From assembly GCA_027923965.1 (NCBI GenBank), contig AP026969.1, forward strand, positions 3,658,001 to 3,722,000: a stretch of 64,000 bases of DNA. The letters run 5' to 3'. Positions 6,123-19,742 of this stretch are shown in pieces (the stretch's first letter is position 1; the number at the start of each line of letters is the position of its first letter). The notes under the pieces are model-generated. The model saw only the letters and a list, made by a program, of their open reading frames with translations, made no database searches and was not told where the DNA came from. Both the position numbers and the translations under genes were made by a program. The stretch comes from Comamonadaceae bacterium OS-1. GTDB lineage: Bacteria; Pseudomonadota; Gammaproteobacteria; Burkholderiales; Burkholderiaceae_C.

Positions 6123-8162
6123 CTAGGGCGTAAAGGTCGGAATACCCAACTGGGTGAACACGGCATTACCCGCCGTGCCATTCAGGCGGACCACCTGGGC
6201 GGTGTTCAGCTTGTCTTTGAAACCCCAATAGACTTGGCCACCACGCTCTACAAACACCCGTTCGTAACTCAGGCCCGCGGCCTGGCTGGGAAAGCCACTG
6301 AGCGTCATGATGCGGGCATCGCCCAGGGTGGAAATGGCGTATGCGCCGGTACCCACCGCGGTGCAGTTGCGGGTCGAACCATTGATGGAGCGCTCCAGGC
6401 AGGCATAAAAAGTCACCGCATTGCTGGCTCCGCCCGCAAACGCCACGCGTAGCTTGGTGTTGCCCGTGTAGTAACCGGTGGCCGTACTGCTGGTGCCCAG
6501 GGGATAGTCGCGCACCGTGCCCAGGCTGGTGGTGGTGTTGCCCCAGCCCGTATTCGGTAGCAGGCTGTGATAGACCGTCCCGCCTGCACCGGTAAGGCTT
6601 CCCGCAGCGAAGGTGCAGGGCGTGCCCGGATTGCGGGCAATCATCACTTCCAACGTGACCGCATTCGAGGCATTGGACGAAGTAGATCCCGCGCAGGCTA
6701 TCGCGCTGTTGACCGTGGCATCACCACCGGCCGCCACGTCGGCGTCGGCCACAGTGACGATATTGCTGGAGCGCACGTCATAGGCGATGGAGGTAGCCGT
6801 GGTGGTATCCGACTGTGACTGCAACTTGGAACCGGTAGGAAACACCGCGCTTCCCACGTCGGCCGTCACCGTGCCGGTAAACCAGGTCGGCGCTTTGCCC
6901 CAGTTGCTGCCATTGGTCCGGGTGGATTGGATCAACGCGAAGATGCTGGCCAGGGTTTTGCCGCTGATATCGGTGGTGACCCGCTGGGTTGTACCTTTGC
7001 TGTAGTTGTCGCAAAAGTTGTAACTGCCTCGCCCTTGGCTATCCCTCACCGTACTGGTGTTTTGGGTACCCACAGGGCAATTCACCCAGGCCGAACCGTT
7101 CCAATGCACATCGTCCTTGCGCAGCGGATCGTTGTTGATGACCCACTGGGTCTCAACGCCGTTGACGTTGATGTGGCGGATAGAGCGGTAACGTGTCAGC
7201 CCATTGGCATCGGGTGTCGCCTCGGCTGCGGTCGATGTGATGATGCGGGTGTACCAGTTGTTCGGATCGCCCACATTCACCCAGTCCAGCGAGAAACTGG
7301 CTACGGGCGTGGTTGCGGTCGTGGCCGGCGCTTCAGTGGGCAGTTTCACAAATGCCACGCTGGATGCCAGTGTGGCCGGAGTCAAGCCGTTGTCCGCTAC
7401 CAGTGTGGACACAGCTGCAGCAATGGCGGTTTTGCAGGCGGCCGAGGTTTTGTCGGCACATGCCGTGGCAACCGCCGTGTCGCTGCCTGCCGCAACCGCG
7501 GCCGCAAGCAAATTCCCCAGATTACCCATGATGGCTTTTTGGATATCAGCAGCCGTCATCACGGTGCCGTTGCTGTCGGCCTGGCCTGCCAACGTGGCCA
7601 GGCTGCTGGCTTGGCTCTGGATCGCCACAACCAGCACCCGTGCAGTGGTGGCCGCTGTACTGTCGCCGCTGGCCACATAGTTCGCCATGGGCGATGTGGA
7701 CAAACCTGCCTGGTTTTGTACCACCGAAGCCGCCGCTGCGGTGCCCACACCCGTAGAACTCACCACTTGCTGCACCAGGGTCGTCAAGGGGCTGATCACC
7801 GCCGTCTGGTCCGCTGGGGCGGTCAAGGTGTAGGCCGTGGTGACCGGCCCGCTATCAGCATCGACCGCCCCGACAGGCACCACGGCGATGACCGGATACT
7901 TGCCTAGGTCGGTATTGAGGACAGCAAAGCTGGCCTGACCCGCAGCATTGGTCGTGGCCTGCGGCTCGGCGGTGTCACAGACCCCATTGGCATTCACATC
8001 CAGACACACAACGGCACCCTGGATCAGGCCGTCCATGACGGTCAGGGCCACGTTGGTAGTGGCAGGCGCAGGCGCAACGGCCACCGTGTCGCCATCGCCT
8101 CCGCAGGCCGACAGCGCGGCGATGGCGGCGCTCGAAAGCGCCAGCTTCAGCTTGGTATGCAT
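6123..8162 (-). CDS. Large lipoprotein, paralogue of the downstream gene
   Basis: A 679-residue protein starting MHTKLKLALSSAAIAALSAC, with lipobox Cys20 followed by GGDGD exactly as in its neighbour. The N-terminal module has VMDGLIQGAVVC and DVNANGVC (55-62), a possible calcium loop, then ISPLTTLVQQV. The C-terminal part contains GNTKLRVAFAGGASN, YACLERSINGSTRNC, TLGDARIMTL and VERGGQVYWGFKDK, closely matching blocks of the 777-residue protein. It ends soon after that block, lacking the neighbour's extra domain. The genes are separated by about 280 bases with a terminator between them, so each is probably transcribed on its own. Function is unknown. Confidence 0.85.
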   Translation of the reverse strand: MHTKLKLALSSAAIAALSACGGDGDTVAVAPAPATTNVALTVMDGLIQGAVVCLDVNANGVCDTAEPQATTNAAGQASFAVLNTDLGKYPVIAVVPVGAVDADSGPVTTAYTLTAPADQTAVISPLTTLVQQVVSSTGVGTAAAASVVQNQAGLSTSPMANYVASGDSTAATTARVLVVAIQSQASSLATLAGQADSNGTVMTAADIQKAIMGNLGNLLAAAVAAGSDTAVATACADKTSAACKTAIAAAVSTLVADNGLTPATLASSVAFVKLPTEAPATTATTPVASFSLDWVNVGDPNNWYTRIITSTAAEATPDANGLTRYRSIRHINVNGVETQWVINNDPLRKDDVHWNGSAWVNCPVGTQNTSTVRDSQGRGSYNFCDNYSKGTTQRVTTDISGKTLASIFALIQSTRTNGSNWGKAPTWFTGTVTADVGSAVFPTGSKLQSQSDTTTATSIAYDVRSSNIVTVADADVAAGGDATVNSAIACAGSTSSNASNAVTLEVMIARNPGTPCTFAAGSLTGAGGTVYHSLLPNTGWGNTTTSLGTVRDYPLGTSSTATGYYTGNTKLRVAFAGGASNAVTFYACLERSINGSTRNCTAVGTGAYAISTLGDARIMTLSGFPSQAAGLSYERVFVERGGQVYWGFKDKLNTAQVVRLNGTAGNAVFTQLGIPTFTP

Positions 8163-8461
8163 AGGGTAGATCCTTGGTTTTACACGGCAACTTACAAGGG
8201 AAAAGCGTGCGCATGTTCTACCAGCCGCTCCCCCCAGTCATCCTCCATTTAGATGAAAGAAATCTCCTTGTGGTGGAGCGTTTTGCGATGCACACCGGAT
8301 TTTTGGTGCATACGTCACAAATTCCAGTGGTCGGAATACCAGCCCAAAACCGATCCAAAAGCCTATGCTTGGCCTAGCCTAGCTGCAAATTGTTTTCTTC
8401 TTGTACCGTCTCGTTTCAGCCTGCATGTCGCAGGACCAGCAGGCACCCTTGGGACTCCGCC
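8163..8461. other. Divergent intergenic region, no gene seen
   Basis: This 299-base spacer separates the minus-strand lipoprotein gene from the plus-strand LuxR-type regulator and must hold both promoters. It is less GC-rich than its surroundings. I saw no clear -35/-10 pair, RNA gene or repeat element in it. Confidence 0.5.
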
Positions 8462-9130
8462 ATGCTGAACATTGCCCCGTCCTCCTTCGCCGCCGATGCC
8501 ATCAACTACATCGACGAACCAGAACTGTCTGACACTTTGGTCCTCATGCAATGCGTGCTGGAGCAAATGGACTACGGCCTGGCCCTGGTGCATATGGCCA
8601 CCCGCCAGATCCGGTTTGCCAACCGCCTGGCGCACGACGGGCTGAACGGCCCCGGCAGCCTGCGCAGCGGCCTGTGCGTGGTGGACGGAAGGCTCAGCAC
8701 GCTGCTGCGCACCGACACACCGCAACTGGAACACGCCCTGGTGCGCGCCCAAACCGGGGTGCGGGCGCTGATCAGCCTGGGCGGTGAAGACTGCACCACC
8801 AGCGTGGCCCTGGTGCCACTGAACGCCCCCGGCGCAGCCGCGTACGCCTTGCTGGTATTTGCCAAGCAGCAACTGTGCGACAGCTCCACCATGGCGCTGT
8901 TTGCCCGCGAACGCGGCCTGACCAGTGCCGAAAGCAATGTGCTGGCCTCGGTATGCAGCGGCATGCGGCCCACCGAGATCGCCACCCACCACGGGGTGCA
9001 AATTTCCACCGTGCGCAGCCAGTTGCGCAGCATCCGCATCAAAACCCGCTGCGACACCATCCGCCAGCTGGTAGAGACCGTGTCCATACTGCCGCCCATG
9101 GCACGGCATATGGCCGCCGTGCAGCATTGA
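8462..9130 (+). CDS. LuxR-type transcriptional regulator
   Basis: A 222-residue protein with a C-terminal LuxR-type helix-turn-helix (about residues 155-215: LTSAESNVLASVCSGMRPTE then ISTVRSQLRSIRIKT). The N-terminal 140 residues look like a PAS-like sensory domain and have no receiver-type phospho-acceptor pattern. I chose the ATG at 8462 (MLNIAPSS) rather than the upstream in-frame ATG at 8390, whose added residues have no family look. It diverges from the large lipoprotein gene and is followed by a Crp-family gene on the same strand. Targets are unknown; the divergent lipoprotein gene is an obvious candidate. Confidence 0.82.
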   Translation: MLNIAPSSFAADAINYIDEPELSDTLVLMQCVLEQMDYGLALVHMATRQIRFANRLAHDGLNGPGSLRSGLCVVDGRLSTLLRTDTPQLEHALVRAQTGVRALISLGGEDCTTSVALVPLNAPGAAAYALLVFAKQQLCDSSTMALFARERGLTSAESNVLASVCSGMRPTEIATHHGVQISTVRSQLRSIRIKTRCDTIRQLVETVSILPPMARHMAAVQH

Positions 9131-9214
9131 TCGCGCCCCCGATTTGTCAAGAATGTAACCAGGGCATGGAGAATGGCATAGACTGCGGGCGCGCGACGTG
9201 CGCCCATCCATGCC

Positions 9215-9877
9215 ATGCAGTCACCCATCAACGCACTCACCGACGCTTTTTGTAACGACCCCGTGCAGCCCCTGCTGTTGCGTGAACTGGTGCCTTTGGG
9301 CGAATCACGGCGCTATCGCAAGGGCACGGTGCTGATCCACGAATCCGACCCCGGCGACACGCTGTTTGTAGTGGTGGAAGGCCGGGTCAAGGTGTATTGC
9401 ACCGATGACTTTGACAAGGAAATCACCTTTGGAGTGATCGGCCCGGGCGACTATTTTGGCGAAATGGCCCTGGACGGAGGCCCCCGCTCAGCCAACGTGG
9501 TGACCCTGGAGTCCACTGTCTGCACGCTGCTGACGCGCGCCACCCTGCTCGGGTTCATTGGCAAGCACCCCGAATTTGCGCTGGACCTGCTGTCCAAAGT
9601 GATTCGCCGCGCCCGCATGGCCACCAACAGCGCCCGCAACCTGGCCTTTGTGGACGTGTATGGCCGCCTGAGCCAGTGCCTGCAAAACCTGGCCACGCCC
9701 CAGCCCGACGGCACCCAACGCATCACCGAGCGCATTACCCACCAGGAAATCGCCAGCCGCACCGGCTGCAGCCGCGAAATGGTCAGCCGGATTCTGAAAG
9801 ACCTGGAAAACGGTGGCTATGTGCAGATCGACAAGCGCCAGATCGTATTGGTGCAACCCTTACCAGCCCGCTGGTAA
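9215..9877 (+). CDS. Crp/Fnr family transcriptional regulator
   Basis: A 220-residue regulator. The N-terminal cyclic-nucleotide-binding beta-roll spans about residues 20-135. Its phosphate-binding cassette at 82-93 (GEMALDGGPRSA) is close to the cAMP-binding consensus of Crp, so nucleotide binding is plausible. The C-terminal winged helix has ITHQEIASRTGCSREMVSRI, the usual recognition helix. There is no N-terminal cysteine cluster, so it is not an oxygen-sensing Fnr. It follows the LuxR-type gene by 84 bases. A class III cyclase-domain protein is encoded about 1 kb downstream, which could supply its ligand, but this is only a positional hint. Confidence 0.9.
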   Translation: MQSPINALTDAFCNDPVQPLLLRELVPLGESRRYRKGTVLIHESDPGDTLFVVVEGRVKVYCTDDFDKEITFGVIGPGDYFGEMALDGGPRSANVVTLESTVCTLLTRATLLGFIGKHPEFALDLLSKVIRRARMATNSARNLAFVDVYGRLSQCLQNLATPQPDGTQRITERITHQEIASRTGCSREMVSRILKDLENGGYVQIDKRQIVLVQPLPARW

Positions 9878-9880
9878 GGG
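9857..9880. terminator. Perfect 10-bp inverted repeat across the Crp-family stop codon
   Basis: CCCTTACCAG, loop CCCG, CTGGTAAGGG is a perfect 10-bp stem with a tetraloop that includes the stop codon TAA (9875-9877). No long T run follows directly (CGTATAAAGCCTTTT), so it may be a weak terminator or an mRNA 3' stabiliser. Confidence 0.5.
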
Positions 9881-9886
9881 CGTATA

Positions 9887-9940
9887 AAGCCTTTTAGGCC
9901 GCTCACGCTGATGGGATGAGCGTGAGCAGCTACTAAAAGC
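9887..9940. repeat. Dispersed palindromic element, copy 1
   Basis: CTTTTAG, then GCTCACGCT / AGCGTGAGC around a TGATGGGATG centre, then GCTACTAAAAG. It lies between the convergent Crp-family and GNAT genes and may act as a bidirectional terminator. It matches the copies listed elsewhere in this window. Confidence 0.8.
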
Positions 9941-9948
9941 GTAGCAAA

Positions 9949-10476
9949 TCAGTCCAGCGCACGTTTCAGGCGGATTTCTTCGATCTTGATGTCGCCCATG
10001 GGCACGGTCTTGGCGGTGTTGAGTTCGCGCTTGAAACCGGCCAGGTCGAAAAAGCGCAGGGCGCGTTCGTTGCGCAAGGGAATCCACACGGTGACCGTAG
10101 TGCAACCCTCTTCGATCAGGGCTTCGCGGGCGGCATCCCACAGGGCCAGGCCTACACCTTTGTCCCAATGGCTCTCGGCCACGTAGATCGACCAGATTTC
10201 ACCCACGGTGTTCTTGGTGCCCTTGTCGCGCGAACGGTCAAAGCCGACAAAACCGACAATCTTGCCACCGTCCACCGCCACCTGCACCTGCGGGTCGCCG
10301 TATTCGATGGCATCGCGCCACATGCCCAGGCGCTTGGGGGCGGGCATGAGGTTGAGGTGCTCGTCGGGCACCAGGCCCCGGTAGGCGGACGCGGTGGCGC
10401 TGACGTGCAGGTCGGCAATCGCCTGCGCCTCGTTCAAGACAGCGGGGCGGACATCGACGTTAAAGGAACTGGTCAT
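9949..10476 (-). CDS. GNAT family N-acetyltransferase
   Basis: A 175-residue single-domain GNAT protein. The acetyl-CoA-binding region shows the V-shaped beta4/alpha3 pattern (GEIWSIYVAESHWDKGVG, then LWDAAREALIEEG), followed by the NERALRFFDLAGF motif typical of motif B. Such enzymes transfer an acetyl group from acetyl-CoA to an amine of a small molecule or protein; the substrate cannot be read from sequence. It diverges from the ferredoxin operon with a 108-base spacer. Confidence 0.87.
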   Translation of the reverse strand: MTSSFNVDVRPAVLNEAQAIADLHVSATASAYRGLVPDEHLNLMPAPKRLGMWRDAIEYGDPQVQVAVDGGKIVGFVGFDRSRDKGTKNTVGEIWSIYVAESHWDKGVGLALWDAAREALIEEGCTTVTVWIPLRNERALRFFDLAGFKRELNTAKTVPMGDIKIEEIRLKRALD

Positions 10477-10544
10477 GGAGAAGTAAGGCCTGAGCGCGAA
10501 AATATTTTGGGGGACCGGGATTGTCGCCGCAAAACGCTACGGCC

Positions 10545-10573
10545 TTGGCACCCCCTGGGCCGCAGACTAAACT
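10545..10573 (+). promoter_or_regulatory. Strong sigma-70-like promoter of the ferredoxin operon
   Basis: TTGGCA (10545-10550), 17-base spacer, TAAACT (10568-10573). Transcription would start near 10580, only about 5 bases before the ferredoxin ATG at 10585. No Shine-Dalgarno sequence precedes that ATG, consistent with a nearly leaderless message. Confidence 0.55.
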
Positions 10574-10584
10574 CCGCTTTACCT

Positions 10585-10878
10585 ATGCGATACGAAACCG
10601 TCTGTTACACAGCCCAGATCGCACCCGAAGAGTCGCACTTTGGTGCGCCGCCCGACCTGCCCTTGCTGGTATCGGCCGAGCACGCCGGGCGGATGCTGGC
10701 CAGCTCGTGCCGCAATGGCACCTGCCGCACCTGCATTTGTCGGCTGGTCAGCGGCCAGGTGGCCTACCGCATTGCCTGGCCCGGCCTGAGCGCCGAAGAA
10801 AAGGCCGAGGGCTACATCCTGCCCTGTGTGGCGTACCCGGTGTCCGATGTGGTGATACGCCTGCCCACGTCCTTTTGA
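10585..10878 (+). CDS. [2Fe-2S] plant-type ferredoxin
   Basis: A 97-residue protein with the plant/bacterial [2Fe-2S] ferredoxin cysteine pattern: C-RNGT-C-RT-C (in SSCRNGTCRTCICRL) and a fourth Cys in LPCVAYPVSD. It is a one-electron carrier. First gene of an operon: the next gene starts 16 bases after its stop, and two heme-enzyme genes follow. The natural inference is that it donates electrons to the P450-like protein encoded at 15064. No ferredoxin reductase gene is present in the window. The ATG at 10585 fits the domain exactly, and a longer open frame upstream is not needed. Confidence 0.9.
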   Translation: MRYETVCYTAQIAPEESHFGAPPDLPLLVSAEHAGRMLASSCRNGTCRTCICRLVSGQVAYRIAWPGLSAEEKAEGYILPCVAYPVSDVVIRLPTSF

Positions 10879-10894
10879 ACCCGCCCCCCTGTCC

Positions 10895-13800
10895 ATGGAC
10901 CCGCTTGTGCACACCCCCGACACGCCGGCGTTGACCCTGACGGTCTTGCTGGAGGACGCTGTGCTGTCGATGGCACTGAGCGATGGGCGGGCCATCGGCC
11001 ACATCGACCGCCTGGCGCTGCCCGGCGACGACCTGCATACCCTGCTGGCCCCACTCCTGGACAGTCCGATGGAGCTGGGCACCCGCCTCACCACGCGTCT
11101 ATTTCCCCCCAAAATCCACCAGTTCCTCCAGCGCAGCCCGCCGCGCGACCTGTACCTGCAACTGGGCGACAACCTGCTCGACATCCCCTGGGAAATGGCC
11201 TTTGACGGCAGCCACTACCTCGGTGAGAAGTTCCAAACCACGCGGCGCATCCTGTCCGATGCGGCGGTACCGCCTACCGCGCGCCTCGGGACGCACCGGG
11301 AAACCGTGCGCGTGCTGCTGCTGCAAGGCCTGGGCAGCACGGTGACCCAATGCGCCTATGGGGCCGAGCTGGCCAGCCGCATCCAGCCCACCGAAGGCCT
11401 GGCGCTGACCCGCCTGGAAGTCGAGCACGCGCATGCGCTGGACCGGGCCACCCTGCTGCGCCTGGTCGACGAGTTCGACGTAGTGCACTGCATTGGCCCG
11501 ATGGAATCCGACCAGCCCGGCCCGGAGGCCCTTCCCGGTGGCATGCTGGGCTGGACCGACATCGCCCAGCAGTCCAAAACCGCCCAGTTGCTGGTGTTCG
11601 ACCACGCCACCACCGTGGCCGTACCGGCACAAACCCACACCCCCTGGCTGCACATCGCCTGCCGCCGCGGTGCGCCCGTGCTGGTACACCACGGCCACTG
11701 CGGCGCGCCCGGCCACCTGGACTTCATGCACCAGATGTACCAGGGACTGGCCCAGGGCCTGCCACTGGGCGAAGCCGTGCGCCAGGCCCGGGGTGAGGGT
11801 GTCCGCCAGGCCAGCCACGGCGACACCGGTACGCCCCCCTGGACTGCGGCGCTGTATGGCGATGCCGGGCTGGTGCTGCGGCCCAGCGCCGACCGGCTCG
11901 GAATAGGCGACAACCTGCGCCAGGTCACGGCCATGTCCTGCGATTTGGTGAACTCCACCCAACTGCTGGGCGCCTGGGGTGCAGAGCGTTATAGCGACAT
12001 GCTCGACAGCTACCACGCGGCCTGCGCCGGCATCGTGGCGGGCTGGGGCGGCATGTCAGACGATCCGCAGGGCGACGACGGCATCATGTGCTACTTCGGC
12101 GTGCCACTGGCCTACGAGGACTCGGTGGCCCGGGCGCTGCGGGCCGGGCTGGAGATTCTGCAGGCAGTCACCCCACTGGGGGTGCAGGTGCGGGTGGGCG
12201 TGGTCACGGGGCATGTGGTGGTCAAGGCGGGGCAGCCGATCGGCGTGTCGCTGCACCTGGCCGCACGCCTGCAGTCGATTGCCCGGCCCGGCACGCTGGT
12301 GGCCAGCGACTCGACCCGGCAGATCGTCAAGGACAAATTCGTCTTCGAGCGGCTCACCGACCTGCCCCATCTCAAGGGATTCCCGCTCACCGTCGCCGCC
12401 TACCAGGTACTGGGCGAGGTGCGCGACCATGCCCTCTTCCCCCCCGAAGCCAGCCCCCGGCGCACCCCGTTTGTGGGCCGCGACCGCGAGCTGCAACTGA
12501 TGGAATCGCACTGGGCCGCGGTACAAACCAGCGGCTTGCGCACGGTGCTGGTGTCGGGCGAGGCAGGCATGGGCAAATCGCGCCTGACCAGCGAATTCCG
12601 CCGCTCCCTGGGCGCACGCGGCCACCGCACCATCGAATGCCGTTGCACCCCCGAGCATGTCCACAGCGCCTTCCACCCGCTGATCTACCTGCTGCGCCGC
12701 CGCCTGCGCCTGTTTGAAGACGACAGCACCGAAGCCAAGCTGGCCCGCATCCGGGCCCGCATGCCCAAGGCGCTGCACGACAGCGACCTGGCCCTGGTGG
12801 CCGGGCTGCTGTCGGTGCCCACCGAAGGCCACTTGCCGCCCCTACCCCTGTCACCGGAAAAGCAGCGCCAGCGCACCCTGGACGTGCTGGTGGCCTGGCT
12901 GGTCCATGAAACCCGCAGCGGCCCGGTCTGCCTGGTGGTGGAAGACCTGCAGTGGATCGACCCGTCCACCCGCGAATGCGTGCACCGCCTGATCACCGAA
13001 GGCGCGCAGGCACCGCTGCTGGTCGTGCTGACCCTGCGCTCCGAGCTGCCACCACCCCACGACCCCGGCTTTACCGTGTTCGAAGTGCCCCTCAAAGGCC
13101 TGTCGGTCGCATCCACCCGGGCCATGATCCTGAGCGCCTGCGGCCCCAACACCGTACCCGGCGACATGGTGCAACTGCTGGCCGACAAGGCCGACGGCGT
13201 GCCGCTGTTCATCGAAGAATCGGCCCGCATGCTGATGGACCTGGGCGTGCAGCCCGACAGCAGCGATGCCACCCTGGCCGCCCGCTTCACCGTGCCCACC
13301 ACCATCCAGGACCTGCTGATGGCCCGGCTGGACCGGCTGGGCAGCGCCAAGCAGGTGGCCCAGGTGGGTGCCACCATGGGGCGCGAATTCTCCCTGCCGC
13401 TGCTGCAAGCCGTGTTGTCCCACGAAACCTCGCCGATCGGACTGAACCACCTGAGCGCCCAGTTGGCGGCGCTGGTGCGCTCGGGGCTGGTGGTGGAAAA
13501 AGGTGACACCACCAGCCCACGCTATTTCTTCAAGCACGCACTGGTGCGCGACGCGGCCTACGAGTCGCTGTGGGAGCGCGACCGCAAACGCCTGCACCGC
13601 ACCATTGCCAACGTGGTCCGCGAGCAGTTCCCCGATATCGCGCAAAGCCAGCCCGAACTGCTGGCCACCCACTTTGCCCAGTCCGGCAACGATGCCCAGG
13701 CACTGGAATACTGGGAACGCGCTGCCCGCCGCGCTGCCAGCCGCTGGGCCCACGTCGAGGCCATCAACCACCTGCGCAGCGGCCTGGCCCTGCTGGCGCG

Positions 13801-15028
13801 GCTGCCCCCGGTGTCGGAGCGCGACCGTACCGAGCTGCGCCTGCAACTGATGCTGGCCGGGCAGCTCATCACCACCCACGGCTATGGTGCCGACCCGGTG
13901 GGCCACGCCTACGAGCGCGCCGCCGAACTTTGCCAGCGCGCGGGCGACGAGGCCGCGCAAATGAAAACCCTGCTCGGGCTGGAGGGCTACCACTTCATGC
14001 GCGCCGACTTTGGCCGCGCCCACGTCATCGCCCGGCAGGCCGCCGCGGTAGTGGCCCACTCGGCCGACCCGATGCGCAAGATCCAGCTGCAGTGGGCGGT
14101 GGGCAACATCCTGTTCCACCAGGGTGAATTTATCGAAACCGTGGCCCACCTGGATGCCTGCCTGGCCCTGTACAACCAACTCCAGCACCGCCCCCGCATG
14201 GTGCAGGACCCGGGCGTGATGTGCCTGTGCTATTCGGCCTGGGCCCTGTGGGAAATGGGCCTGGCCGACCAGGCCCTGGAGCGCGCCCTCAAGGTGGTGG
14301 CCTTGGCCGAGCAACTGGACCATAAATTCAGCATGGCCGAGGCCTACGCGTTTTGCGCCTCGGTGCACCTGTTCCGCGGCGAAATTGCCGAGGCACTGCA
14401 CTGCGCCACGCGCTCGCGCGACATCTGCGCCGAGGGCGGTTTTGCGGTGTGGCTGTCGTACGCCCAACTGCTGCACGGTCGCCTGGTGGCCGAGCTGGGT
14501 GACCCGGAAGCGGGCGTGGCCGAAATGCGCCAGGCCTACGCCCAGTGGATCGCCACCGGCGCTATCGTCACCCGCCCGCTGTACCTGGCCATGCAGGCCG
14601 AAGGCCTGGCCCTGGCCGGACGGCCCGACGAAGGCCTGGTCTTGCTGGCCGAAGCCTTTGAGCTGGTCTGCCACACCCGCGAGCACTACCACGAGGCCGA
14701 GGTGCGCCGCCTCACGGGGGAACTCATACTGCAGTCGTCCAGATTGCAGGGCGAAGACCGGCAGCACGAAGCCCAAGAGTGGCTGCAGGGCGCGCTGGAG
14801 TTTGCTCACAGCCACCGGCACACCGCCGCCGCCCTGCGCAGTGCCACCAGCCTGGCCCACCTGTGGGTGGGCCAGGGCCGCCACGCCGAGGCCCGGCACA
14901 TCCTCAAAATAGAGTATGACGGCGTCATCGAAGGTTTCTACACTCGCGACGTGCAGGCTGCCAGCGCTTTGCTGCAGTCTCTAACGCACGCCAGCAACCT
15001 GCCTACACCGGCCTCGACACCCGCTTGA
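10895..15028 (+). CDS. CHAT-like / class III nucleotide cyclase / AAA ATPase / TPR signalling protein
   Basis: A 1377-residue multidomain protein. Residues about 60-330 resemble a CHAT (caspase-like) domain, but the usual H-G and Cys motifs read VVHCIGPMESD and LLVFDHATTV, so the protease dyad seems lost. Residues about 345-500 are a class III nucleotide cyclase domain, with metal-binding Asp in AMSCDLVNST and GDDGIMCYFG and the AARL helix; the usual Asn four residues before that Arg is His (LHLAARL). Residues about 525-800 form an AAA/STAND-type ATPase with Walker A GEAGMGKS (about 555-562) and Walker B LVVEDLQWID (about 679-688). The remainder is a TPR-like superhelix. Closest in plan to cyclase-AAA-TPR regulators. 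Cyclase activity and substrate are uncertain. Confidence 0.85.
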   Translation: MDPLVHTPDTPALTLTVLLEDAVLSMALSDGRAIGHIDRLALPGDDLHTLLAPLLDSPMELGTRLTTRLFPPKIHQFLQRSPPRDLYLQLGDNLLDIPWEMAFDGSHYLGEKFQTTRRILSDAAVPPTARLGTHRETVRVLLLQGLGSTVTQCAYGAELASRIQPTEGLALTRLEVEHAHALDRATLLRLVDEFDVVHCIGPMESDQPGPEALPGGMLGWTDIAQQSKTAQLLVFDHATTVAVPAQTHTPWLHIACRRGAPVLVHHGHCGAPGHLDFMHQMYQGLAQGLPLGEAVRQARGEGVRQASHGDTGTPPWTAALYGDAGLVLRPSADRLGIGDNLRQVTAMSCDLVNSTQLLGAWGAERYSDMLDSYHAACAGIVAGWGGMSDDPQGDDGIMCYFGVPLAYEDSVARALRAGLEILQAVTPLGVQVRVGVVTGHVVVKAGQPIGVSLHLAARLQSIARPGTLVASDSTRQIVKDKFVFERLTDLPHLKGFPLTVAAYQVLGEVRDHALFPPEASPRRTPFVGRDRELQLMESHWAAVQTSGLRTVLVSGEAGMGKSRLTSEFRRSLGARGHRTIECRCTPEHVHSAFHPLIYLLRRRLRLFEDDSTEAKLARIRARMPKALHDSDLALVAGLLSVPTEGHLPPLPLSPEKQRQRTLDVLVAWLVHETRSGPVCLVVEDLQWIDPSTRECVHRLITEGAQAPLLVVLTLRSELPPPHDPGFTVFEVPLKGLSVASTRAMILSACGPNTVPGDMVQLLADKADGVPLFIEESARMLMDLGVQPDSSDATLAARFTVPTTIQDLLMARLDRLGSAKQVAQVGATMGREFSLPLLQAVLSHETSPIGLNHLSAQLAALVRSGLVVEKGDTTSPRYFFKHALVRDAAYESLWERDRKRLHRTIANVVREQFPDIAQSQPELLATHFAQSGNDAQALEYWERAARRAASRWAHVEAINHLRSGLALLARLPPVSERDRTELRLQLMLAGQLITTHGYGADPVGHAYERAAELCQRAGDEAAQMKTLLGLEGYHFMRADFGRAHVIARQAAAVVAHSADPMRKIQLQWAVGNILFHQGEFIETVAHLDACLALYNQLQHRPRMVQDPGVMCLCYSAWALWEMGLADQALERALKVVALAEQLDHKFSMAEAYAFCASVHLFRGEIAEALHCATRSRDICAEGGFAVWLSYAQLLHGRLVAELGDPEAGVAEMRQAYAQWIATGAIVTRPLYLAMQAEGLALAGRPDEGLVLLAEAFELVCHTREHYHEAEVRRLTGELILQSSRLQGEDRQHEAQEWLQGALEFAHSHRHTAAALRSATSLAHLWVGQGRHAEARHILKIEYDGVIEGFYTRDVQAASALLQSLTHASNLPTPASTPA

Positions 15029-15063
15029 CACAGGGACTTGCTGGCCCACCCGATGGAGCCACC

Positions 15064-16905
15064 ATGATTGCCCCGTACCTCCCTACCCTGACCACGGGTC
15101 CCCAGGATGACCTCCACAACCACCGGCTCTTCAGCATCCTGAGCGACAACGCCCAGCGCAGCCAGCTCTACCAGGAGCTGATCGCCACCCCCCAGGTGCT
15201 GAGCTTCACCAGCCGCGCCGACACCAAGTTCCGGTCTACCGACGACGGCAACTCCCAATACCACCAGACCGTGCACCTGCTGACCCAGCGCGCGCACATC
15301 GAACAGGCGCTGACCGACACCGCGAATTTCAGCAACGCGCCCTACCTGGCGCTGGGCAGCGGCACCTTCATGCTGGGGCTGGACAAGGACCAACCAACCC
15401 CCGCCACCGACGAGCACCTGGCCCAGCGGGCGCTGGCCATGCGGGCCTTCCAGTTCAGCCCGGCCACCATCGCCGTGCTCTCCGGCGTGGCCTTCCAGGC
15501 TGCTGCCACCCTGCCGCTGAAATCGCGCTACTTCGACCTGGCCCTGCTGGCCGAGCAGGCTGCGCTGCGCTTTGTGGGCTTCATGTTTGGCTTTGCCCAG
15601 TCCGACATCGCCCTGCTGGAACGCACCACCCGCCTGGCCTACGCAGGCATGGGCTACCAGATGTACGCGCGGCATTTTGTGACCTCGCCCGGCACCCTGC
15701 TGGAGGCTTCCAGCGGCATGGGCGCGCTGTTGATCCGGGTGGCGCAGCTCATCGACATGTACCAGAACCCGATTGGCCGCACCGAGATAGACGAGGCGAA
15801 GGCCATAGCCGATGAACTCAAGGAGCTGCAGGCCTTTCATCCCGCACTCGCCAGCTTCAAGCCGGTGCTGCAAGGCCTGGCCGGGAACCCCGGCGGCTTT
15901 TCCGGCACCGAGCTGGCCGCCATCGTGGTGGGCTCCATCGCAGGCATCATCGGCAATGTGCAGGCCAGCGTGTCGATTGCCATCAGCCAGTTTTTTGAGC
16001 TCGGGCTGCTGGCCAGCGCCCAGGCTGCCGACAGTGCCGCCTTGAAAGACATGGTGATGGAAGCCCTGCGCCTGCAGCCGCCCGCGCCGTTTTTGCCGCG
16101 CAAGGCGCTGTGCGACAACCCGTTTGCCGACCCGCTCGGCGCGCATATCAAGACGGGCGACATCGTCATCCTGGCCGTTGGCGCGGCCACCCGGCAGAGC
16201 GCAGGCGGACCGCTGCACCGCTTTCGGCCCGGCACCACCACCGACGACCCGCTGATTTTCGGCGGTCCACCCGACAGCAACCCCGCCACCCGCTACCTGC
16301 ACCAGTGCCTGGGCAAGCACATCGCCCTACCCCTCATCACCCACGTGATGCAGCAGGTGCTGGCCCTGCCCGGCCTGGACCGGGTGCTGGACCCGCGCAC
16401 CGGCGACCCCCAGCCGCTGGTCAAGCGCTGGGGCTTCAACTGCGACAGCTTTCCGCTGCAGTACACGGTGGACAAGGCCCTCATCCAGCAGTCGCTGAAC
16501 GTGGTGATGCCCATCAAGACCCCGATCGCGGTGCATGCCGAGATGGTGAAAAAAATCATTGCCTATGGCGCGCCGCGCATCCAGCTGCGGCTGGACCAGT
16601 CGCGCCACGTGCACTTTGCCTGGTTCAACCTGCAAAACAACGACAGCGAACTGGCCCTGCACACCGTGTTCGACGGCGACTTCGATGCCTACATTGAGCA
16701 CTTTGCGGTACACATCGGCCCGCTGTTCGACCAGTTGCTGGAGCACATCCAGCACGCCTCGCCCCGCCCGGTGGCCGAGTTTCCCAAAGAGTTTGTGGAC
16801 ACCATCCGCCGTTTTCACCAGCCCCCGGTGGGCGGCTACTTCTACAGTGCGCACCCGATGCAAACCGTGGACAAAACCATTCCCCCAGCCCGGTCCATCC
16901 CATGA
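15064..16905 (+). CDS. Divergent cytochrome P450-like protein fused to a C-terminal FDGD-type domain
   Basis: A 613-residue protein. The first 470 residues look like a cytochrome P450: the K-helix ExxR (EALR, about residue 333), an I-helix-like GSIAGIIGNVQASVS in which the usual Thr is replaced, and a Cys-ligand region HQCLGKHIAL with Cys near 415. The heme loop is degenerate: the His two before and Gly two after the Cys are kept, but the usual Phe and first Gly are not. Residues about 480-613 form a separate domain with VHFAWFNLQ and HTVFDGDFDAYIEHF, a pattern I associate with proteins near heme or iron oxygenases. The ATG at 15064 was chosen over nearby upstream codons. It overlaps the DyP gene by 4 bases. 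Confidence 0.75.
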   Translation: MIAPYLPTLTTGPQDDLHNHRLFSILSDNAQRSQLYQELIATPQVLSFTSRADTKFRSTDDGNSQYHQTVHLLTQRAHIEQALTDTANFSNAPYLALGSGTFMLGLDKDQPTPATDEHLAQRALAMRAFQFSPATIAVLSGVAFQAAATLPLKSRYFDLALLAEQAALRFVGFMFGFAQSDIALLERTTRLAYAGMGYQMYARHFVTSPGTLLEASSGMGALLIRVAQLIDMYQNPIGRTEIDEAKAIADELKELQAFHPALASFKPVLQGLAGNPGGFSGTELAAIVVGSIAGIIGNVQASVSIAISQFFELGLLASAQAADSAALKDMVMEALRLQPPAPFLPRKALCDNPFADPLGAHIKTGDIVILAVGAATRQSAGGPLHRFRPGTTTDDPLIFGGPPDSNPATRYLHQCLGKHIALPLITHVMQQVLALPGLDRVLDPRTGDPQPLVKRWGFNCDSFPLQYTVDKALIQQSLNVVMPIKTPIAVHAEMVKKIIAYGAPRIQLRLDQSRHVHFAWFNLQNNDSELALHTVFDGDFDAYIEHFAVHIGPLFDQLLEHIQHASPRPVAEFPKEFVDTIRRFHQPPVGGYFYSAHPMQTVDKTIPPARSIP

Positions 16906-18263
16906 CGCTGCGCCCCCACATCCAGAACCTGGTGGCCAATGGTTTTGACACCGACCGCAGCCGTTACTTTTTACTCCACATCGCGCAGCCCGCCGCCGCA
17001 CGGCTGTTCTTGCGCACCCTGCTGGACCAGGGCTGGGTGGTCGATGCCCATGAGGCCCGCCAACACGCCCTGGCCTTGCACGCCCAGCAGCGCTGCCCCG
17101 CAGGCCTTGGCTTCACGTATGAGGGCCTGAAAGCCCTGGAGCTGCCCACACGCTACCTGCGCGTGGTGGCCGAGCAGGCCCCCGCCTTTGCCGAGGGCCC
17201 ACCGCTGCGCGCCGCGCACCGCCTGGCCGACACCGGCCCCAGCGCCGCCTCGCTGTGGGAGGAGCCCTTCCGCCACCGCAGCGCCCACGTGTTTTTGACC
17301 CTGCACGCCGACGATGCCACTACCTTGGAAACTTGCAGCCAGGCCTTGCAAACCATGGCGGGCGATGCCTTCGACCCGCAGGGCTGGGCCACACCTTTCG
17401 ACGGAGCCCACCTGGGCACCAACAAAAAGCAGCGCCGCGAACACTTTGGCCACCTGGACGGCCTGACCAACCCCTTGATCGCAGGCCTGCACACCCTCAA
17501 GCAGCCCACCATCCCCCTGGCCGTGCCGCCCAAGCTGCACGCCGCAGGCGAATTCTTGCTAGGCCACTGCAACGCCGAGGGCTACAACCCCTGGCTCAAC
17601 CCGAACGAGCCCGCATCGGTGCGGCAGTTTTTTGCCAACGGCAGCTTCTCGGCCCTGCGCAAAATGGCGCAGGATGTGGAGCGCTTCAACACATTTACCC
17701 AGAACCAAACACTGCCCGAGGCCACCGTGCGCGCCAAGCTGCTGGGCCGCTGGGACAACGGCCAGGTGGTCAGCCCGGAGCCCGTCGCCATGCCCCACCC
17801 CGCTACCCGCGCCGGGCTGAACAACTTCGACTTCAAAAACGACCCGCACGGCCTGGGCTGCCCCTACGGCGCGCACATCCGCCGCATGAACCCGCGCGAA
17901 GACGCGGTGGTGCCGGTGCGCAAACGCCCGCTGATCCGGCGCGGCATTCCGTACACCACAGAGAGCGAGCGCGGCCTGCTGGGCCTGTTCTTCTGCGCCA
18001 GCCTGGAAGACCAGTTTGAACACCTGCTGGCCGAATGGGGCAACAAAAACCCGTTTGGCGTGCCCAACGCCAGCACCGCCAAGGACCCCATGGTGGGCAA
18101 CCACGAGGGCGACGGCGGCGTGTTCTGCATCCCCAACCCTACCGGGCCGGACACCCAGCTGCGCGGCTTCACCCCGTTTGTGACCACCAAGGGCACGCTG
18201 TACAGCTTTTTTCCGAGCCTGGATGCATTGAAAATGCTGGCCGATGGGTTTGGAGCCGAATAG
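16902..18263 (+). CDS. DyP-type heme peroxidase
   Basis: A 453-residue dye-decolorizing peroxidase family member. It has the family's GxxDG motif as GHLDGLTNP (about residues 182-190, distal Asp), the proximal-His region CPYGAHIRRMNPRED (His near 324) and the distal-Arg stretch ERGLLGLFFCASLEDQFE. DyP enzymes use hydrogen peroxide to oxidise bulky substrates. There is no Tat or Sec signal, so it should be cytoplasmic or an encapsulin cargo, though no encapsulin gene is nearby. Its start overlaps the P450-like stop (ATGA), so the two heme proteins are translationally coupled. The substrate is unknown. Confidence 0.88.
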   Translation: MTLRPHIQNLVANGFDTDRSRYFLLHIAQPAAARLFLRTLLDQGWVVDAHEARQHALALHAQQRCPAGLGFTYEGLKALELPTRYLRVVAEQAPAFAEGPPLRAAHRLADTGPSAASLWEEPFRHRSAHVFLTLHADDATTLETCSQALQTMAGDAFDPQGWATPFDGAHLGTNKKQRREHFGHLDGLTNPLIAGLHTLKQPTIPLAVPPKLHAAGEFLLGHCNAEGYNPWLNPNEPASVRQFFANGSFSALRKMAQDVERFNTFTQNQTLPEATVRAKLLGRWDNGQVVSPEPVAMPHPATRAGLNNFDFKNDPHGLGCPYGAHIRRMNPREDAVVPVRKRPLIRRGIPYTTESERGLLGLFFCASLEDQFEHLLAEWGNKNPFGVPNASTAKDPMVGNHEGDGGVFCIPNPTGPDTQLRGFTPFVTTKGTLYSFFPSLDALKMLADGFGAE

Positions 18264-18267
18264 GCAC

Positions 18268-18315
18268 CTAGAGCCCATGGAATGGGCGTGAGCAGCTATT
18301 TTTACAATAGCAAAC
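18268..18315. repeat. Dispersed palindromic element, copy 2 (eroded)
   Basis: GCCCATGGAATGGGCGTGAGCAGCTATTTTTACAATAGCAAAC-like sequence. The right half matches the other copies, while the left half has been rewritten into a shorter GCCCAT/ATGGGC palindrome. It lies just after the DyP gene. Confidence 0.65.
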
Positions 18316-18359
18316 ATGTGCGCAGCTGCAAACCACGGATGAACCGGGTGTAATACGCC

Positions 18360-19190
18360 ATGGCTACTTTTCCACCACCCTCCATGTCTACCACCCTACC
18401 CACCTATTTCATCTCCCACGGCGGCGGGCCGTGGCCGTTCATGGACAGCATGCGCGAGGCCATGCGCGGCCTGGCCACCTCGCTGGCCGACATGCCGCGC
18501 CAGTACCCCGCACCCAAGGCTATCCTGGTGATTTCGGCGCACTGGGAAGAAAACGCCTTCAGCATCATGTCCAACCCCCACCCCGGCATGCTGTACGACT
18601 ACGGCGGCTTTCCGCCCCACACCTACAAGGTGGTCTACCCGGCCCCCGGCGCGCCGGAGCTGGCGCTGCGCATCCAGGGGCTGCTGGCGGCTGCCGGGCT
18701 GCCGGTGCGGCTGGATGCAGAGCGCGGTTTTGACCACGGCACCTTCTCGCCGCTGGTGGTGATGTACCCGGATGCGGATGTGCCCCTGCTGCAGGTGTCG
18801 TTGAAAACCGGGCTGGACCCTGCCGTGCACATCGCCCTGGGCCGGGCCCTGGCGCCGCTGCGCGACGAGGGCGTGCTGATCGTGGGCAGCGGCCTGAGCT
18901 ACCACAACCTGCGCCAGTTCGGCCCGCCGGGCAAGGCCCCGTCCATGGCCTTTGACCAGTGGCTGCAAGACACAGTGGTGGCCGCCAGCCCCACCGAGCG
19001 CGAAGCCCGCCTGCTGGACTGGGCGGCAGCCCCCGCCGCCCGCATCGCCCATCCGCGCGAAGAGCATTTGCTGCCGCTGATGGTGGCCCTGGGTGCGGCC
19101 GAGAACGACACCGCCACCTGCGTGTACCACGAAGACAACGTCTTTGGCGGCATCACCGTGTCCAGTTTTAGATTCGACAGTTCTAAGTAA
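18360..19190 (+). CDS. DODA-type (LigB-like) extradiol ring-cleavage dioxygenase
   Basis: A 276-residue member of the LigB/DODA class III extradiol dioxygenase family (E. coli YgiD-like). Metal-ligand histidines are visible in FISHGGGP, VISAHWEE, GFDHGTFSPL and HPREEHLLPL. Such enzymes cleave catechol-type rings; E. coli YgiD acts on DOPA and uses zinc. The start may be the ATG at 18360 or the in-frame ATG at 18384 (MSTTLPTYF); neither has a clear ribosome site. It lies about 97 bases after the DyP gene with a repeat between, so it is probably a separate unit, though an aromatic-substrate link to the peroxidase operon is possible. Confidence 0.86.
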   Translation: MATFPPPSMSTTLPTYFISHGGGPWPFMDSMREAMRGLATSLADMPRQYPAPKAILVISAHWEENAFSIMSNPHPGMLYDYGGFPPHTYKVVYPAPGAPELALRIQGLLAAAGLPVRLDAERGFDHGTFSPLVVMYPDADVPLLQVSLKTGLDPAVHIALGRALAPLRDEGVLIVGSGLSYHNLRQFGPPGKAPSMAFDQWLQDTVVAASPTEREARLLDWAAAPAARIAHPREEHLLPLMVALGAAENDTATCVYHEDNVFGGITVSSFRFDSSK

Positions 19191-19243
19191 AAAGAGCTGC
19201 CCGTGCTTATCTGATAAGCACAGGCAGCTCTCAATTAAATAGC
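19189..19243. repeat. Dispersed palindromic element, copy 3 / bidirectional terminator
   Basis: GAGCTGCC-GTGCTTATC / GATAAGCAC-GGCAGCTC forms a nearly perfect long stem flanked by an A run on the left. It lies between the convergent dioxygenase and DUF2917 genes. Confidence 0.8.
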
Positions 19244-19250
19244 ACTGGGT

Positions 19251-19742
19251 TTACACGGCCCGGCCACGCCCCACCACCAGGTAGTCGCCCAGGCCGACCA
19301 GGCCCAGCACCAGGCGGCTGGCCGCAGCGCCTGCCGAGCGCAGGGCCTGCGCCAGGTCGCGGCTGGGTTGCACCACGCCACCGCGCCACTGGGCACCGAC
19401 GCTGGCGGCCTCATGGCGGCCATCCCAGACCACCTCGGCTTGCGGCTCCCAGCTGAAATACACCGGTGCGCGGGCCGCCGGGTTCCATGGCTCCACCACC
19501 AGGCGCTGACCGGCTTGCAAGTTCAGGCTGTCGCCCGCGTTGAGCAACCGATCGCCTGGCAGCTCGGGTTCGCCGTGCTGCATGCCGTTGACCGTGGCCC
19601 ACACGGCCCCCTGGGTCACGCGGAACACGCCCGGCTGGCGCGGCTGGAAGGTGGTGGCCTCGCCCGCGTCCAGCTTCCAGCATGCCGTCAATGCCGCTGC
19701 GGACAGAGGGGAGGACGATGAGAAAGTACGGAAGTGGACCAT
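19251..19742 (-). CDS. DUF2917 domain protein
   Basis: A 163-residue protein whose middle part (WKLDAGEATTFQPRQPGVFR, VTQGAVWATVNG, PGDRLLNAGDSLNLQAGQRL) fits DUF2917, a small cupin-like beta domain common in Burkholderiales. Function is unknown. A ribosome site AAGGAG precedes the ATG at 19742 on the minus strand. It diverges from a LysR-type regulator over a 109-base spacer, the classical arrangement for a LysR target gene, so regulation by that neighbour is a reasonable inference. Confidence 0.8.
   Translation of the reverse strand: MVHFRTFSSSSPLSAAALTACWKLDAGEATTFQPRQPGVFRVTQGAVWATVNGMQHGEPELPGDRLLNAGDSLNLQAGQRLVVEPWNPAARAPVYFSWEPQAEVVWDGRHEAASVGAQWRGGVVQPSRDLAQALRSAGAAASRLVLGLVGLGDYLVVGRGRAV

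Follow-up and report, generated by a model that had tools for sequence, protein, structure and literature searches.

We analysed a 64,000-nt window of the genome of Comamonadaceae bacterium OS-1 (contig AP026969.1, positions 3,658,001 to 3,722,000), in which a gene for a large STAND-type ATPase is followed by genes for a cytochrome P450 with an additional C-terminal domain (CTD) and for a DyP-type peroxidase. A ferredoxin gene lies upstream of these three and a DODA-like dioxygenase gene lies downstream (Table 1). The genome, a single contig of 5.12 Mb, lies near Rhodoferax sp. WC2427 as judged by protein identity (P0006, 85%). The initial annotation had described the genes from ferredoxin to DyP as tightly spaced or overlapping. 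Indeed, all four are on the plus strand, 16 nt separate the ferredoxin stop from the start of the STAND-type gene, and the P450 stop and DyP start share an ATGA at 16902-16905. The P450 frame is open from a TTG at 15025 to a stop that ends at 16905; judged by sequence context, its most likely start is the ATG at 15064, behind a GGAG and 35 nt past the STAND-type stop. For the ferredoxin, the first ATG is at 10585. Position 10545, where the initial annotation began, is a weak promoter-like hexamer, and a scan of 9800-19400 returned one such site with 1.1 expected, which is not above chance. A horizontal island was considered and rejected, because the GC content of the region resembles that of its surroundings.

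Table 1. Features of the cassette and its immediate neighbours in the window.
Feature	Position	Strand	Basis or remark
2Fe-2S plant-type ferredoxin, 97 aa	10585..10878	+	PF00111, E 9.3e-13; non-core neighbour
CHAT-cyclase-AAA-TPR STAND-type protein, 1377 aa	10895..15028	+	Pfam, NCBIfam, alignment A3 (n=16)
CHAT part of STAND-type protein	11072-11806	+	
Class III cyclase-like part of STAND-type protein	11918-12403	+	
AAA_16 part of STAND-type protein	12467-13027	+	E 1.3e-24
P450 core, residues 14-480 numbered from TTG 15025	15064..16464	+	PF00067; predicted P450 fold
CTD, C-terminal alpha+beta-barrel domain of P450 protein	16465..16905	+	mobile DyP partner
DyP-type peroxidase, 453 aa	16902..18263	+	PF20628, PF21105 and TIGR01413 matches
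LigB-family (DODA-like) dioxygenase	18360..19190	+	PF02900, E 4.8e-33

A profile of the P450 family retrieved 29 loci from named genomes; 20 of these contain the P450 core, and four more loci and the window bring the total to 25. Conservation was scored in these 25 (the window, L014-L032, L034, L047, L048, L049 and L111); L033 and L035 were excluded, since they have no P450 core and share their bins with L020 and L023. The CHAT-cyclase-AAA-TPR protein is encoded directly upstream of the P450 in 25/25 loci, the window included, and the DyP directly downstream in all 22 loci where the contig reaches that far (L020, L023 and L025 end before it). Thus, the proposal that a STAND-type ATPase and two different heme enzymes form a conserved unit was borne out, and the order CHAT-protein, P450, DyP is conserved far beyond chance. 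Translational coupling of the two heme enzymes, also proposed earlier, is likewise upheld: at 18 of the 22 loci the P450 stop and the DyP start share four bases, with the start in the DyP frame (17 ATGA, 1 GTGA). The P450 stop abuts the DyP start in two further loci (L015 and L026). L049, with a TTGA or a later ATG, is ambiguous, and L019 is an exception, its overlapping codon lying in another frame. Within a family sample of 200 genomes that includes the window's own, the P450 matched in 12 and was near full-length in eight, each with the STAND protein beside it (8/8). An order-wide search with alignment A2, scoring the best three candidates per genome, gave two of 399 genomes, the window's own and one with the tail domain only, which suggests that P450s of this type are rare outside the family. 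The core is almost certainly a three-gene cassette of STAND-type protein, P450-CTD and DyP.

Alignment A3 places an intact ATPase in the large protein. The Walker A (G555, E556, A557, G558, G560, K561) and Walker B (E683, D684) residues are invariant in 16/16 sequences and, with the repeat sensor region, identify a STAND-type NTPase; the TPR_12 match had an E value of 2.9e-6 but its 27.8 bits lie under the cut-off of 30.1. The cyclase match to PF00211 is also below its cut-off (16.4 versus 21.9). Among the residues that we take to be the two metal Asp, the transition-state Asn and the Arg of a class III cyclase, D350, D395 and R458 are invariant, but His454 stands in place of the catalytic Asn in 16/16, so the set of an active cyclase is incomplete. 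Similarly, no invariant or nearly invariant Cys occurs in the CHAT part (residues 1-340, 16 sequences), where the only such His is H198, and the His-Cys dyad of an active CHAT protease is thus missing. These residues suggest catalytic decay in both the CHAT part and the cyclase part. An ATP-driven switch or scaffold is therefore likelier than second-messenger synthesis, and the earlier suggestion of nucleotide-signalled control has become doubtful. STAND relatives also occur elsewhere. In L108 (G162, 6568-12775), one lies in the same LysR/cupin/MTHFS/Slt neighbourhood with no adjoining P450 or DyP; a cyclase-TPR gene adjoins it, and the locus is perhaps a cassette remnant. Another, in L109 (16731-20000), adjoins galactose-use genes, as read from translations, which suggests that the sensor family serves other neighbours.

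The P450 is divergent yet recognisable, matching PF00067 with 23.9 bits against a cut-off of 22.8. A structural model (pLDDT 89.8) predicts a whole P450 fold which, together with the heme-thiolate Cys motif, identifies the protein as a cytochrome P450. In counts taken from alignments rather than regular expressions, as were those for the DyP, the heme Cys428, His426 and Gly430 are invariant in 82/82 aligned P450s. The ExxR motif is variable, with E in 66/82 and R in 72/82. Helix I of the window protein reads A306 G307 I308 I309 G310 N311 in place of the acid-alcohol pair. Subject to the alignment there, the acid position (309) is I or V and the Thr position (310) is G, S or H in 82/82, while Asn311 is invariant; the residue pair of an O2-activating monooxygenase is accordingly absent from all 82. 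In the P450 lineage that is fused to DyP (see below), the acid position is L or M in 84/85, and the remaining one is a gap. The idea that the P450 tail is without kin was rejected, as this domain is a mobile one found with DyP, which elsewhere precedes DyP or is fused to it. Tandem duplication of the CTD was seen in both architectures (P0016, P0058, P0310 and P0286). Whether the two P450 lineages share one origin or were recruited independently was also considered, but dropped, because a tree with three single-sided groups and long branches does not decide it. ARAGORN additionally called a tRNA-Ala (cgc) antisense within the P450 gene (15282-15356, minus strand), a call that is probably false because Rfam, which at the gathering threshold had zero matches in the window, finds nothing there.

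The third protein of the cassette shares catalytic residues and family profile with DyP-type peroxidases. It matches PF20628 with 22.1 bits, barely above the cut-off of 20, and scores 77.8 bits against TIGR01413, under the cut-off of 100.5. Asp186 of GxxDG, His325 and Arg346, which we take to be the motif Asp, the proximal His and the distal Arg, are kept in 121/121 sequences (the window and its 120 best homologs). What sets it apart from typical members is its divergent sequence and its constant P450-CTD neighbour. The modules of the cassette are also linked in nature as P450-CTD, as CTD-DyP, as a single CTD-DyP-P450 chain (L043, L045) and as DyP-patatin (L030, L049). Among the 120 listed matches of the L043 protein, 113 homologs have at least 980 aa, and 74 of these 113 carry both the DyP and the P450 heme motifs. 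A phylum-wide search with the fused protein matched 30/398 genomes, and the matches listed cover the DyP or the P450 part, none both. The same search of the family sample matched 10/200, with DyP and P450 together in three: as one chain in G155 and G186, and as neighbours in G046. STAND genes adjoin all three P450-bearing variants of other architecture, L043-L045. L045 (G186) has, in a row, a gene for a stand-alone cyclase, one for the CTD-DyP-P450 fusion and a winged-helix/STAND gene; L044 (G046) likewise has CTD-DyP, P450 and a winged-helix/STAND gene.

The ferredoxin and DODA genes are not part of this core. The ferredoxin flanks the cassette in 6/21 testable loci (L019, L020, L024 and L025 have the STAND gene cut at the contig start) and DODA in 6/20 (L017 and L027, in addition to the three loci ending before the DyP, could not be scored for DODA or patatin). 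The same six loci carry both, tightly, and all belong to one Rhodoferax-type clade that includes the window. Ferredoxin matches were found in 38/60 relatives, some of them domains of other proteins; in G012 the best match lies beside a GNAT gene, with the cassette on another contig. Ferredoxin and DODA are therefore lineage-specific neighbours. The initial annotation had envisaged a four-gene module acting on an aromatic substrate. Co-occurrence in other genomes stands for three of its four families and is confined to one clade for the ferredoxin, and both the four-gene module and the aromatic substrate, which was argued from DODA, lose their basis. An electron-transfer pathway in which the P450 receives its electrons from the ferredoxin and the set, with DODA, oxidises an aromatic compound would explain why both genes flank the cassette so tightly in 6/6 loci of the window's clade. 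However, the same P450 occurs without ferredoxin in 15/21 and without DODA in 14/20 testable loci, the ferredoxin is also found away from the cassette, and the P450 lacks the O2-activating pair, which makes this explanation quite improbable.

The recurrent extra gene is instead a patatin-like phospholipase (PF01734), which follows the DyP in 13/20 testable loci. Its GxSxGA and DGG motifs are kept wherever the match covers them, with hydrophobic stretches between, and in L030 and L049 DyP and patatin form one open frame. In L022, a PhoX phosphatase follows the DyP in its place. This gene bears on a further explanation, that the cassette scavenges peroxide or handles heme, with the DyP detoxifying H2O2 or hydroperoxides and the P450-like protein serving as a partner without catalytic activity. 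DyPs act on peroxides, EfeB-type members act on heme, and the variable ExxR motif would suit a P450 that has lost catalysis. Against it stand the invariant heme Cys, His and Gly and the predicted whole P450 fold, and the phospholipase would be left unexplained; we consider it improbable.

A blastp comparison of 21 neighbourhoods bears on a third explanation, that DyP and P450 are successive oxidases tailoring a small natural product (peptide, polyketide or aromatic), with the large protein as pathway regulator. That protein does resemble the TOMM kinase/cyclase TIGR03903 (E 1.9e-145, match beginning at profile position 284), sharing the cyclase-AAA-TPR body of such class III cyclase proteins over residues 340-1323, and many biosynthetic P450s are among the listed structural neighbours of the P450. 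The score of 486.5 is nevertheless below the cut-off of 705.75, CHAT replaces the kinase domain and the cyclase Asn is lost, so the protein falls outside the TOMM family. Additionally, the only genes common to at least 10 of the 21 neighbourhoods are those for the CHAT-protein, P450, DyP and patatin. Others occur in at most four loci, those identified being enoyl-CoA hydratase and S-adenosylhomocysteine hydrolase, and no scaffold-making enzyme stood out in the 21, though not every neighbour was identified. Natural-product tailoring is thus unlikely.

Bacterial defence systems often contain STAND ATPases and patatin effectors. PMC12931631 describes a STAND defence system, and a sensor of the ATPase-TPR type joined by a lipase that attacks membranes would fit an anti-phage or stress-suicide system in which the STAND protein senses an invader and DyP, P450 and patatin inflict oxidative and lipid damage. 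A defence module had indeed been put forward from the sequence, but it gained no direct support: PADLOC returned no meaningful match, the best being a generic TPR model at E 0.0052, followed by PycC at 0.022. Furthermore, the Rhodoferax relative L111 and the window have collinear genes (Crp, GNAT, LysR, MTHFS) around the cassette, which does not resemble a mobile defence island, and the window's own clade is without the patatin. We regard a defence role as distinctly unlikely.

Taking together the gene order, the overlap, the domain swaps and fusions, the heme ligands, the patatin motifs and the loss of the O2-activating residues, we favour a STAND-controlled, hydroperoxide-processing two-heme module that probably acts on lipids, and put the probability of this mechanism at about 0.4. 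The STAND ATPase would sense a trigger and, by way of a complex, activate the enzymes. An unsaturated lipid would then be released by the patatin or, in the window's clade, by a general lipase, and the DyP could convert this lipid with peroxide to a radical or hydroperoxide. A docked P450 may rearrange or use this hydroperoxide independently of NADH-derived electrons, and the product would be an oxidised-lipid signal or toxin. The lipid substrate is suggested by the patatin and by analogy, while a CYP74- or linoleate diol synthase-like use of hydroperoxide by the P450 is suggested by its residue pattern and its neighbours; the reaction order, the docking and the control of the enzymes are likewise our proposals.

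Peroxidase-P450 pairs are the basis of animal prostaglandin-type signalling and of fungal oxylipins, and the scheme resembles fungal dioxygenase-P450 and coral allene oxide synthase (AOS)-lipoxygenase pairs, with DyP in the peroxidase role. As described in the part of PMC13049297 available to us, hydroperoxide-isomerising P450s are self-sufficient, several of them with a distal Asn. The same text covers fungal fusions of a dioxygenase with a P450 (the linoleate diol, epoxy alcohol and allene oxide synthases) as well as the COX/prostacyclin synthase pair. In these, a peroxidase-type heme enzyme is likewise paired or fused with a P450, one that handles its hydroperoxide without electron transfer and whose O2-activation motif is altered, as here. 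Unlike these, the cassette is bacterial, its peroxidase is a DyP rather than a COX-like enzyme, which places it outside the fungal dioxygenase-P450 group, and it adds a STAND ATPase and often a patatin. Oomycete CYP5619 fusions to a peroxidase/dioxygenase (PMC5919972, in the accessible part) are eukaryotic and similar in the joining of P450 and peroxidase. Coral AOS-lipoxygenase fusions, with their catalase-related AOS (1u5u; PMC5617202, accessible part), also set a second hydroperoxide heme enzyme beside an oxygenase; here, by contrast, no lipoxygenase was seen and catalase-like genes sit in other DyP clusters, not in the cassette. Our literature search, mostly outside subscription journals, found no paper describing either DyP-P450 fusions or this cassette, in agreement with the earlier statement that no described pathway with this set was known.

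In bacteria, the cassette may correspond to the paired heme enzymes that make lipid signals in fungi and animals. A wider version of this proposal, in which a DyP-P450 machine (with a phospholipase in many lineages) is licensed by the ATP-driven sensor to make oxidised-lipid mediators, as a bacterial STAND-controlled oxylipin system that arose independently of the eukaryotic COX/lipoxygenase pathways and has parallel versions with an AOS-like catalase instead of the P450, is speculative and rather doubtful. If true, DyPs would gain a physiological pathway, the same two-step peroxidase-P450 chemistry would have arisen by convergence, and NLR-like sensors would be linked to lipid oxidation. The fused forms make the two-heme idea directly testable with single purified proteins.

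Sixteen other DyP loci (L036-L046, L082 and L128-L131) offer a comparison. STAND-type genes lie near L037, L038 (a LuxR-TPR protein), L043, L044, L045, L128 and L129, and near L042 there is a TPR protein whose STAND type is ambiguous. Some of these DyPs have a catalase-like protein beside them as the second heme enzyme; its gene in L128 and L129, together with one for a SAM-cyclase-AAA-TPR protein, is convergent to CTD-like and DyP genes. A profile of four catalase-like proteins found coral AOS (1u5u, E 2e-5) as its best PDB match and scored E 0.015 against 3e4w, and Pfam Catalase is below cut-off for the L128 and L129 proteins. The L037 protein matched 3e4w at E 5.2e-27, whereas the best of its much poorer matches to true catalases had 2e-13. 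A literature search for a mycobacterial AOS-like catalase gave nothing relevant. These clusters support the theme of a peroxidase paired with a hydroperoxide-handling heme enzyme.

Several points weigh against the hydroperoxide mechanism. To our knowledge, no DyP has been shown to dioxygenate fatty acids. The patatin is missing from the window's clade (0/6) and from L022, and the ferredoxin 16 nt upstream of the STAND gene in that clade could supply the P450 with electrons. The acid residue of helix I is also lost in two of five ordinary comparison P450s, Asn311 aligns one position past the canonical Thr in an uncertain part of the alignment, and the Asn of plant AOS is presumably at another position. 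No STAND gene was seen near 8 of the 16 other DyP loci, some of them on short contigs, and STAND relatives occur without these enzymes adjoining in G162 (L108) and G011 (L109). Lastly, the match to 1u5u is short and weak, with unrelated aminopeptidases next at E 0.0042.

Three of the 16 other DyP loci were of interest for their neighbours. The window genome has a second DyP cluster (L082, 5083-13916, in G000:C1:1239001-1254000) that encodes an 849-aa cytochrome-c-like protein, a GMC oxidoreductase, a CTD-like-domain protein, a DyP and a catalase/AOS-like protein; L130 and L131 resemble it. A RoxA-like kinship of the 849-aa cytochrome was considered and set aside, with a weak Pfam match only and no PDB support. 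In an Acidobacteriota metagenome-assembled genome (MAG; L041, 4-2544), an eCIS-core/OmpA protein is encoded upstream of a CTD-DyP pair, at a distance of a few kb. A Modestobacter MAG (L036, 2305-6105) has a CTD gene and a DyP gene followed by one for a galactose-oxidase-like protein (PF09118), a possible source of peroxide.

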